Positions 10,229 through 13,557 of a stretch of DNA of 34,356 bases are shown here, piece by piece. The notes below the pieces were generated by a model, which had not been told where the DNA came from, made no database searches, and saw only the letters and a list, made by a program, of their open reading frames with translations. The translations under genes were made by a program, and so were the position numbers. How positions within the stretch are numbered: the stretch's first letter is position 1; every line of letters begins with the position of its first letter. Source of the stretch: Flavobacteriales bacterium (GTDB taxonomy: Bacteria > Bacteroidota > Bacteroidia > Flavobacteriales_G > Salibacteraceae); NCBI GenBank assembly GCA_020435995.1, contig JAGQYO010000036.1:1-34356 (forward strand), in the 5' to 3' direction.

Positions 10229-10738
10229 CTATAAATCGAAAATCGGGTTATTCGAATTGTGTTTTTCTTTCTCCTCTTTTTTAGGCGCTTGTGGTGTCAC
10301 TCTATTTTGGTTATTCGGACCTTGAGGCGCAGGAATCCACAAGTCGTTGGGCATAAAAGACTGCATCATTTGCTGGTGCATTTGAATCATTTCTTCATGC
10401 ATTTTTTGCATATCTACCATTCCTCTAGGCATATTCATAGCACCGAAACCCAAACCAGGCATTTGAAAAAATGGATCGTTGAAGCCGCCGCCCGAAAAAA
10501 TTTGTTGTGTAATTCCCATGTGCGACATTATACTGTCTACATTGCCATTGCCCGAGTAGCTCCAACTCCAAGTAGAATCGTAGCGAGTTATATTTCCATG
10601 TTCGTCAATTTCTTTATTCACATCAATTTTTACATCAGGTTGCTGAGAAATAATAGATCCCTGAGCCTTTGAATTCAGGCCCACAAACAATAACCCTGCG
10701 AACAATAAAACGGGAAATAGTGAAAATTTCGTTTTCAT
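10229..10738 (-). CDS. Secreted Met-rich protein, possible metal-binding
   Basis: 169 residues; no family recognised. The signal peptide is about residues 1-25 (ends NSKAQ). Residues 33-60 are a polar segment with DEHGNITRYDSTWSWSYSG. The notable part is 101-129, with ten Met (101, 103, 107, 110, 113, 117, 120, 124, 125, 129) and His at 114 and 121. The i/i+3/i+4 spacing from 107 to 125 would place Met and His on one face of a helix. Such Met/His helices occur in periplasmic copper-binding proteins. A low-complexity Pro/Asn/Lys tail follows. The neighbour upstream is a TonB receptor with a His-rich leader, and beyond that a Cys/His-rich protein, which supports metal handling by context. Function is inferred. 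It could instead be a structural or chaperone-like envelope protein. Confidence 0.72.
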   Translation of the reverse strand: MKTKFSLFPVLLFAGLLFVGLNSKAQGSIISQQPDVKIDVNKEIDEHGNITRYDSTWSWSYSGNGNVDSIMSHMGITQQIFSGGGFNDPFFQMPGLGFGAMNMPRGMVDMQKMHEEMIQMHQQMMQSFMPNDLWIPAPQGPNNQNRVTPQAPKKEEKEKHNSNNPIFDL

Positions 10739-10765
10739 ATCACATGCCTTTAATGATTCCTAAGC

Positions 10766-10773
10766 CAAAATTA
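10766..10773 (-). promoter_or_regulatory. Bacteroidota -7 promoter box TAATTTTG
   Basis: An exact TAnnTTTG match on the minus strand, 28 bases before the ATG at 10738. It would let the Met-rich gene and the genes after it be transcribed separately from the TonB receptor. No clear -33 TTG at the expected spacing. Confidence 0.4.
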
Positions 10774-10828
10774 AAATGGCCTCTTGGTACTTAAAATAAC
10801 TCGCGATTAAAATGTTGTTAAAGCAAAT

Positions 10829-13063
10829 CTACCCACGAAAAAGTCGCATTCGCATCCCCACATAAAAGGTCTGACCTTGAACTGGAGCCCAAATAAGCGA
10901 ACCATCAAATTCTGGATCAAAGGGCTTGTCGGCGCTAATTATCGCGTTGGGTTGTTTATAACCTAATATGTTTTCTCCACCTAGGTACACTTCCCACCAT
11001 CTAAACCTGCGCGTTATTTGGGCGTTTAAAAGTGCATAAGCATCAGATGCCTCGCTTCGAATATTCTCTGGCTTGTTGCCAATAGTAGTTGGAATACGGC
11101 TTACACCCACAAATTGTGTGGTAAGATCAGCTTGCCATTTTTGATTTATCGTTTTAAAAGCCATGGTAAACATCCCTCTCCAATTGGGAATCAATGGTGC
11201 TTGTTTTAGTCCATCGACATAATCTGTTTTTACCTCTAAGTATTTTCCAGCTACACGTACTTCAAATACCTTCCAAGGTTCGTAACCCAACTCGGCTTGA
11301 ACCGCATGAGAAAATGACCGTCCGCTTAAGTTGTAAAACATCAATTCGCCTGGTAATTCTCTGTCAACCACCACCTGGTTCTCAAAATCGGTATAAAAAT
11401 ATTCTCCGTGCATAGTAAAGTCTCGGCCCGCCAATTGAATTTTTTGGGTAATACTACCCCCTGTGTTCCAAGCAATTTCGGGCTGTAAATCATTCTGGAT
11501 TGTTATCACCCTAGAACTTACAAAAGTTGAGGCGTTTTCTGCAAATACATTGGCTACACGAAATCCTCGTCCTCCTGAAATTCGAGCAATACCACGTTCC
11601 GAAAAATTGTATTTGAAATTAGCTTTGGGGCTAATCTGAGTGCCAAACATGTTGTGGAAATCAGAACGCAAGCCGAGAACCGCTCCAAATTTACTTCCCG
11701 TATAAGAATATTCACCATATACGCCCGGCACCTGCTCTTGACGGTAATAGTTTTTTCCGTTAAAAGTTTCATCATATTGGTCGAATACATACGATGCACC
11801 TAACTTGTACTTATGATCAGTACTTTGAATAATATCCGAAAAAATGAAATTACCATACAAATAGCGCTCTTCTCCCTGATAATCTCTTAACCCCATGTAA
11901 TAAGTTTGATTATATAAGGAGCCACGGGCAAGAAAAGCCACACTGCGCCCGGGGTGATTGTGAAATACAAATCCATTTTTAAAAAAGGCCTGTAGGTGTG
12001 TTGCTTCTGCTCCAGTTCCATACAAATTGGTGGTGGCATAGTCTCGCTCTGGATTAAAATCTACTTGCCCTCCTTGTCTATCTTCGGCCAATGCCTGCAC
12101 GCCAAATTGAGCCATGTACTTTTCTCCTTCGTACTTCCATCGATTGAGCATATTCAATTGATTGCGCAAGGGCATGTCCAAAAAACCATCGTTGTTGTTG
12201 TCATTTTTTTGTCTAATCGTATTTGCATGTGCCAACACCATTGAACTCCATCTCGCATTAATTTTATCTCCAACATGCACGTTGGCTTCCAATCTACCCA
12301 TTGCATTTGCATACATGTTGATGTACAATCGCTCTTTCAATTTGTCGGGCTTCAGCAGCTCCAAGTTAATCTGACCGGTCATTGGCTCATAGCCATTTAC
12401 GACCGATCCTGTACCCTTAATAATTTGGATACTTTCTACCCAGGTGCCAGGAACATGTCCCAAACCATCAAAATTTGCCAATCCCCTGATATACGGGATG
12501 TTCTCTGCTTGAATTCCAGTATAAATTCCATCCAAACCCAGCATTTGAATTTTTTTAGAACCCGTTACGCCGTCCGAAGTCACCACATCAATAGAGGCGT
12601 TGGTTTCAAAAGCCTCAGAGATGTTGCAACAGGCGGCCCGACTCAACTCGCCTTCGTTGAGGGTTTCTACATTAATGGTTTTCATTAAGTCTATAGTGGT
12701 CGACTGCTTTCTTTCAGCCACCACAATTTCATTCATTTGTACAGAGCTTTTTAAACTCACTTGTATTTTCTGACTTTTAGATTTTACCTCAACCGTGTCG
12801 CTCGTATAACCAACATAACTAAACACCAATTTTGATGGGTAGCTTTGCGGTTCCGCTAATTCGAATTTTCCCTTTGCATCTGTTGAAGTTCCAACGGAGG
12901 TTCCTGACCAAAATACATTTACACCTGGAAGGGTTTCTGATTCGCCGTGCTCGTGCTCAGCTGCGTGGTTGTGTTCATGGGCCTCCAATACTCGCCCTTT
13001 AACTTGGGCACTTAGCATAAAACTGGAGCATACCCCAATAAGAATTATTATTATTTTTTTCAT
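10829..13063 (-). CDS. TonB-dependent receptor, His-rich leader and Cys-Cys plug motif; likely metal-related
   Basis: 744 residues. A signal peptide (1-19) is followed by a carboxypeptidase-regulatory-like domain (about 20-105). It is interrupted at once by a His/Glu stretch with His at 29, 31, 33, 37 and 39. A TonB plug follows (about 120-235; the family-specific ELSRAACCNISEAFETN with C145-C146, then RGLANFDGLGHVPGTWVESIQIIKGTGSV). The rest is a 22-strand-type barrel ending in the aromatic-poor MRMRLFRG. It is an outer-membrane importer energised by TonB. The AACCN plug variant is one I associate with Bacteroidota receptors found next to small HYC_CC_PP proteins and heavy-metal genes, which matches the gene 62 bases upstream. 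Substrate is inferred as a copper, zinc or similar metal complex, not a sugar: no SusD partner is present. Confidence 0.88.
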   Translation of the reverse strand: MKKIIIILIGVCSSFMLSAQVKGRVLEAHEHNHAAEHEHGESETLPGVNVFWSGTSVGTSTDAKGKFELAEPQSYPSKLVFSYVGYTSDTVEVKSKSQKIQVSLKSSVQMNEIVVAERKQSTTIDLMKTINVETLNEGELSRAACCNISEAFETNASIDVVTSDGVTGSKKIQMLGLDGIYTGIQAENIPYIRGLANFDGLGHVPGTWVESIQIIKGTGSVVNGYEPMTGQINLELLKPDKLKERLYINMYANAMGRLEANVHVGDKINARWSSMVLAHANTIRQKNDNNNDGFLDMPLRNQLNMLNRWKYEGEKYMAQFGVQALAEDRQGGQVDFNPERDYATTNLYGTGAEATHLQAFFKNGFVFHNHPGRSVAFLARGSLYNQTYYMGLRDYQGEERYLYGNFIFSDIIQSTDHKYKLGASYVFDQYDETFNGKNYYRQEQVPGVYGEYSYTGSKFGAVLGLRSDFHNMFGTQISPKANFKYNFSERGIARISGGRGFRVANVFAENASTFVSSRVITIQNDLQPEIAWNTGGSITQKIQLAGRDFTMHGEYFYTDFENQVVVDRELPGELMFYNLSGRSFSHAVQAELGYEPWKVFEVRVAGKYLEVKTDYVDGLKQAPLIPNWRGMFTMAFKTINQKWQADLTTQFVGVSRIPTTIGNKPENIRSEASDAYALLNAQITRRFRWWEVYLGGENILGYKQPNAIISADKPFDPEFDGSLIWAPVQGQTFYVGMRMRLFRG

Positions 13064-13070
13064 TTTCAGA

Positions 13071-13128
13071 TAGCATTTAGAACTGTAATTAGGAAATGGG
13101 TGGCGCTGGATGGCGTTCCTAAATGCTA
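13071..13128 (-). repeat. Inverted repeat spanning the gap between the Cys/His protein and the TonB receptor gene
   Basis: TAGCATTTAG (13071-13080) and CTAAATGCTA (13119-13128) are perfect 10-base inverted repeats 38 bases apart. Pairing extends through AA/TT with one bulged base. The right arm contains the stop codon of the upstream gene (13126-13128). There is no T tract after it on the minus strand, so it is not a classical terminator. It may be an attenuator or an mRNA processing or stability stem. Confidence 0.5.
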
Positions 13129-13521
13129 AAGCCTAAATACCTGAAATAAAACTTGAAAGCTTTGGGTAAGAAGAGGTGGTGGTAGCGAAAAATCGCTCAG
13201 TGTAAAAAAAACAGTTAGTGTGTTGAAGGAGTAACCCTGTGTGGCTAGCGCAAATACATTTTTCAGTGACTCGCTCTTTTTTGAAAGGTGATTGAGGGTA
13301 AATGAATCGTAAGACACATTGAGGTCTTCGTGGTCGCAGCACCTCTCGGCAATCATTTGAGTCGAATGATCTCCGTCGTGGCAGCAATCCTTAGCAGCTA
13401 AACTAACCTCTGCTGCACCCGATTGGTGACATGTCGCAACGTGGATGTGCACGCCCATAGCCCCTAGAAGGGTTAAGCCAACCAGAACAAAAGAAACTAT
13501 TTTCTTACTCAGATTCAACAC
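13126..13521 (-). CDS. Small secreted Cys/His-rich protein, HYC_CC_PP-like
   Basis: 131 residues. A hydrophobic signal segment (about 7-23) precedes a ligand-rich region with HIHVATCH (H25, H27, C31, H32), CCHDGDH (C46, C47, H48, H52) and CCDHED (C61, C62, H64), then a Pro pair (LPPPLL) near the C-terminus. This order of His/Cys, double Cys and Pro-Pro resembles the small HYC_CC_PP proteins encoded beside metal-related TonB receptors in Bacteroidota, although the first motif here is not literally HYC. It is probably periplasmic or membrane-attached and binds a soft metal; this is inference. After an in-frame stop (TAA at 13531-13533, minus strand) there is no ATG. GTG 13521 or TTG 13518 must be the start, and a full promoter lies directly upstream. 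First gene of the minus-strand metal-ligand cluster. Confidence 0.75.
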   Translation of the reverse strand: MLNLSKKIVSFVLVGLTLLGAMGVHIHVATCHQSGAAEVSLAAKDCCHDGDHSTQMIAERCCDHEDLNVSYDSFTLNHLSKKSESLKNVFALATQGYSFNTLTVFFTLSDFSLPPPLLTQSFQVLFQVFRL

Positions 13522-13525
13522 GTTG

Positions 13526-13557
13526 CAAAATTACCTTTTTTTAAACTCAATAAACAA
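13526..13557 (-). promoter_or_regulatory. Promoter TTG-N21-TAATTTTG, 5 bases from a GTG start
   Basis: On the minus strand TTG (13557-13555) and TAATTTTG (13533-13526) are separated by 21 bases, which fits the Bacteroidota -33/-7 consensus and spacing. The predicted transcription start falls on or next to the GTG at 13521. Confidence 0.6.

Follow-up and report, generated by a model that had tools for sequence, protein, structure and literature searches.

The three adjacent genes described here, located in a 34,356-nucleotide stretch of Flavobacteriales DNA (the window), are best explained as two functional things placed side by side, a reading to which we give rather better than even chances: a conserved uptake pair, made up of a TonB-dependent receptor with an AACC plug motif and a small HYC_CC_PP-like secreted protein, and a Met-rich envelope protein from a family linked to genes of the small heat-shock protein HSP20, for which a stress or proteostasis factor would be the likeliest identity. 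An earlier, sequence-only reading had combined the three proteins, each rich in a different class of metal ligand (Cys/His, His and Met), into a single copper or zinc chain across the outer membrane and periplasm. As the family of the Met-rich gene adjoins small heat-shock protein genes elsewhere, the three genes are probably not one metal-handling chain.

All three ORFs were found where that reading had placed them, on the minus strand (Table 1), with the transcription order HYC_CC_PP-like protein, TonB receptor and Met-rich protein, and with intergenic gaps of 62 nt between the first two genes and 90 nt between the receptor and the Met-rich gene. Its residue counts were largely reproduced. 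The five His of the receptor N-terminus are at positions 29, 31, 33, 37 and 39, the Cys-Cys plug motif corresponds to Cys 145-146 in AACCN, and the Met-rich protein carries 10 Met and two His within the 29 residues 101-129, the spacing of Met 110, 113, 117, 120 and 124 matching the helix repeat as proposed for a single helix face. The Cys/His cluster of the small protein between residues 25 and 64 was also present, its total being 11 (five Cys and six His) rather than the 10 counted earlier. The AACC motif and the cysteines of the HYC-like protein are conserved, whereas the His cluster and the Met cluster are local to the genome or the sub-branch, and thus the latter two do not generalise.

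Table 1. Features of the three-gene locus (window coordinates).
Feature	Position	Strand	Evidence
Secreted Met-rich protein (169 aa), a divergent representative of an undescribed Bacteroidia family	10229..10738	-	Profile E 1.1e-13; HSP20 linkage of main-branch relatives
Met cluster, residues 101-129 (MNMPRGMVDMQKMHEEMIQMHQQMMQSFM) of the Met-rich protein, with helix 110-128	10352..10438	-	10 Met in 29 residues; helix pLDDT about 82-87
Conserved beta hairpin, residues 35-60 (DVKIDVNKEIDEHGNITRYDSTWSWS) of the Met-rich protein	10559..10636	-	Invariant residues and AlphaFold strands
TonB-dependent outer-membrane receptor, 744 aa, CarbopepD_reg_2 and plug with AACCN	10829..13063	-	Pfam PF13715, PF07715
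HYC_CC_PP-like protein of 131 aa, small, secreted and rich in Cys/His	13126..13521	-	NF047658 below cut-off; aligned homologues

The AACC receptor and the HYC_CC_PP-like protein form a genuine, conserved outer-membrane pair. A receptor match (E 1e-60 or better) was obtained in 35 of the 42 genomes of the order, and AACC[NS] was present in the plug of all 30 receptors that were read. An HYC-like gene, called by a simple pattern (a CC pair, and PP near the end), lay beside the receptor in 23 of these 30 loci, and a small secreted CxxC protein (Pfam HMA) was encoded at approximately 20 of them; when HMA calls were tested on three proteins, two scored above the Pfam cut-off and one just below. The earlier statement that HYC_CC_PP proteins sit beside metal-related receptors was therefore borne out as regards the conserved link with the AACC receptor, its metal part being plausible only. 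The frequent secreted HMA neighbours, together with a cation diffusion facilitator at one locus, make a metal substrate plausible, and the receptor would import a metal or metal complex in a TonB-driven manner with the small Cys/His protein acting as an accessory. At the receptor loci of most genera of the order (L011-L031), the secreted HMA-domain protein is encoded too and ends in a CC motif, but the corresponding loci of the window's nearest relatives lack it. The cation diffusion facilitator has a His-rich N-terminus, and its gene (L031:604-1500) separates the HMA gene from that of the receptor.

The receptor aligns over its full length with its relatives and possesses both the plug (PF07715, 25.0 bits with a cut-off of 23.9) and the full barrel of a TonB-dependent receptor, preceded by CarbopepD_reg_2 (PF13715, 68.1 bits). 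Its only Cys residues past the signal peptide are those of AACCN, and AACC was invariant in 12 aligned receptors. The five-His N-terminus occurs in this genome only; receptors of related genomes carry zero to two His there. The domain order, plug and barrel length are those of SusC/RagA-like receptors with an N-terminal CarbopepD_reg_2; the window receptor nevertheless scored far below the cut-off of that model (61.9 versus 368 bits), has the conserved AACC plug motif, and no SusD partner was seen adjoining it. No PDB chain was matched by the receptor sequence at E 1e-5, and its profile retrieved SusC homologues only, at 1e-8, the match with these (8aa4) comprising the N-terminal part and the plug. 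The copper-importing TonB transporters OprC, MbnT and CrtA, whose description does not include an AACC motif (PMC12914433), resemble the window receptor in being TonB-dependent outer-membrane transporters, with a metal also proposed for the latter, but they are not among its PDB matches, and none of the proven copper transporters in the PDB was homologous to it by sequence or profile. Scanning the genome contigs with receptor peptide patterns gave no relatives; the receptor matches reported here come from genome searches.

The small protein matched NF047658 over its whole length (residues 6-126) with 23.6 bits (E 5.6e-5), which is under the curated cut-off of 28 bits, and it is therefore named HYC_CC_PP-like. 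Nine of 12 aligned homologues matched the same model (best E 4.8e-15), and C31, C46, C61, C62, P115 and P116 were invariant in all 12. As in the HYC_CC_PP family, a signal peptide is followed by the Cys/His motif and the CC pair, the C-terminal PP is retained and the gene adjoins a TonB receptor. The HYC triplet, however, reads HVATC in the window copy and HxMxC in the subgroup of its nearest relatives. Our literature search for HYC_CC_PP returned no papers.

Judging from profile comparisons, the Met-rich protein belongs to a family of small envelope (lipo)proteins that has no name, occurs in Bacteroidia and combines a conserved beta hairpin with an amphipathic helix. A phylum-wide search with this protein gave five weak matches, four of which were directly downstream of an HSP20 gene; profile searches then showed it to be spread over the class, in many taxonomic families. 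Scanning named genomes gave 180 relatives, and 80 of their loci were retained. In order to avoid circularity, the window protein was left out of a test profile based on 99 relatives. Residues 24-127 of the omitted protein were matched with E 1.1e-13, compared with 0.03 for the best-scoring of 5000 shuffles, and residues 1-70 alone gave E 1.5e-14, so that the family match does not rest on Met. No match above cut-off was found in Pfam and NCBIfam; DUF3669 (E 0.005, below cut-off) fell in the Met helix and was judged compositional. Order-level profile matches with E 0.001-0.1 looked like signal-peptide or unrelated matches, and those of them that were read (L050, L053, L061 and L062) are not family members. 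Searches of phage records gave no match, neither experiments nor papers dealing with the family turned up, and literature joining HSP20 with an envelope lipoprotein in Bacteroidota yielded nothing relevant.

Alignment of 102 relatives located the conserved part of the protein in the hairpin, where D45, G48, N49, D54 and S55 were invariant. The columns of Met 110, 113, 124 and 125 were occupied mainly by Ile, Leu or Phe, that of Met 120 mainly by Arg, that of His 114 mainly by Arg and that of His 121 mainly by Gln, and Met 117 was the sole conserved Met of the helix (94 of 102 relatives). The conservation of Met and His ligands by which Met-rich copper-binding proteins are recognized was thus not found, and as most relatives have Ile, Leu or Phe in the Met columns, Met here provides a hydrophobic surface of the helix and not a metal site under conservation. 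The AlphaFold model of the window protein supported the proposal that the Met segment is helical, and in both this model and that of a main-branch relative the two hairpin strands were followed by a C-terminal helix, although with modest confidence (mean pLDDT 65). Comparison of the model with PDB folds gave nothing under E 2.9, and that of the family profile with the PDB nothing below E 0.18. Most members have a lipobox Cys after the signal peptide; in the window protein GLNSKAQ replaces the SCNGQ of its relatives, and owing to this loss the protein is probably soluble.

The genomic neighbourhood of the relatives points to HSP20. In 72 of the 80 main-branch loci an HSP20 gene was located directly upstream on the same strand, with gaps of 31-392 nt; of the other eight loci, two were cut by a contig end and three had HSP20 1.4-1.8 kb upstream. 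Class-wide, HSP20 was found within 1.5 kb at 15 of 22 loci from several families. The binomial probability of this linkage arising by chance is negligible, a value to be read with caution as the loci are related. The Met-rich protein itself is unlike HSP20 (PF00011), as it is not an alpha-crystallin and carries a signal peptide. The small lipoprotein genes directly behind HSP20 (L113-L192) occur throughout Flavobacteriaceae.

These data bear directly on the proposed chain, in which copper or zinc would be acquired or buffered by the receptor, the HYC-like protein and the Met-rich protein together, with a periplasmic Cu(I) site in the Met helix. Such a chain would be compatible with the one-strand gene order and the short gaps, with the frequent secreted HMA partner of the receptor/HYC pair, and with a Met cluster exceeding the expectation from composition (equalled in 14 of 100,000 shuffles of the mature protein); some proteins use Met-rich helices to bind Cu(I). 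Against it, under the refuting condition that the earlier reading had itself set, no AACC receptor was present at any of the 80 named main-branch loci, up to 5 kb on each side, nor within about 7-10 kb at the four nearest sub-branch relatives (L109-L112), and none of the 34 other genomes in its taxonomic family, most of which carry the receptor, gave a match to the Met-rich protein. Furthermore, the Met and His positions are not kept as ligands and the usual neighbour of the family is HSP20. We therefore consider a three-member chain unlikely.

In the tree, the window protein groups with L109 and with three proteins of family f96 (L110-L112) with support of 94/90, and its place is not firm because of long branches. 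HSP20 is not a neighbour in this sub-branch, and the single HSP20 gene of the present genome is on another contig (C165), outside the window. As the sub-branch is without HSP20 linkage, the evidence from gene neighbourhoods comes by way of more distant relatives, and the function assigned to the window member is an extrapolation from these. The f96 proteins are both Met-rich and Cys-rich, their C-terminal tails holding CC and C pairs, and their genes adjoin a DUF1883 gene; three copies are known, attempts to widen the set having given no more. From these sequences, a metal role may have been acquired within the sub-branch. One could then envisage recruitment in this lineage, whereby an old stress-family scaffold, its hydrophobic face turned Met-rich, came to buffer metal for the receptor next to it. 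The Met-rich state is indeed local to this genome and its f96 cousins, and the five-His N-terminus of the receptor is local to the genome as well, so that two ligand-rich changes coincide. Yet the arrangement exists in one genome only, no receptor is near the Met-rich f96 cousins, and the exchange of Met for Leu, Ile or Phe is expected drift in a hydrophobic helix, and recruitment thus seems improbable to us. Its fuller version, in which an HSP20-co-encoded envelope family moved, in one lineage, into an HYC_CC_PP/TonB-receptor locus, its hydrophobic helix becoming a metal-binding face and its stress scaffold a metal buffer, appears very doubtful.

The closest receptors, 60-62% identical to that of the window, come from four genomes of one genus (g14; L004-L007, G031-G034), and at these loci HSP20 is directly downstream of the receptor, in the slot occupied by the Met-rich gene in the window. 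We conjecture an ancestral order of HYC, receptor, HSP20 and family gene, from which HSP20 was lost in the window and the family gene in g14; this would explain the shared slot behind the receptor. The correspondence of the two places also speaks against an unrelated single-gene insertion beside the receptor, with its own promoter and without any tie to envelope metal or heat-shock biology, as do the clear family membership and the constraint on the conserved hairpin. Such an insertion would account for a gene that none of the other 34 family genomes contains and for a Bacteroidota -7-like TAATTTTG (window 10766-10773, minus strand) 28 nt upstream of its ATG, although the window shows no enrichment of the motif (29 occurrences versus 42 expected), and we regard such an insertion as highly unlikely. 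TAATTTTG is also present at window 13526-13533 on the minus strand, 5 nt ahead of the HYC-like start.

Under the preferred reading of an uptake pair beside a member of an HSP20-linked family, the homology, the gene linkage and the residue substitutions are established by the data, and we infer a proteostasis function, an envelope location and a history of rearrangement for the Met-rich protein. It would serve stress response or proteostasis on the envelope side, as a member of a family whose genes accompany that of the cytoplasmic holdase HSP20, and its hydrophobic amphipathic helix may bind membranes or unfolded proteins. In the present genome the face of this helix has drifted to Met, loss of the lipobox Cys has probably left the protein soluble, and its gene would have come to lie behind the receptor through rearrangement. 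Periplasmic chaperones of the Spy/CpxP type are small envelope proteins whose amphipathic helices form a helical cradle. By analogy, the Met-rich protein is likewise small, of the envelope, equipped with an amphipathic helix and proposed to have a stress role, but it shows no Pfam match to these chaperones and consists of a beta hairpin and one helix instead of a helical cradle.

Setting the spurious third partner apart from the conserved and still uncharacterised receptor unit (HYC_CC_PP-like protein, AACC receptor and often HMA) keeps copper or zinc experiments focused. The undescribed HSP20-linked envelope family is a by-product of this analysis and its more interesting result: it is without a Pfam or NCBIfam model and common behind HSP20 in Flavobacteriaceae, which suggests that the expression of a cytoplasmic small heat-shock protein is coupled with that of an envelope lipoprotein. 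In two relatives, the lipoprotein gene is followed immediately downstream by one for a DegP/HtrA-like protease (L165:5939-7486 and L183:5516-7066), an arrangement that fits an envelope stress setting. Some of the gaps between HSP20 and the lipoprotein gene hold a further small conserved gene of about 88 aa (MPRKFKSGDWVKVRGK...).
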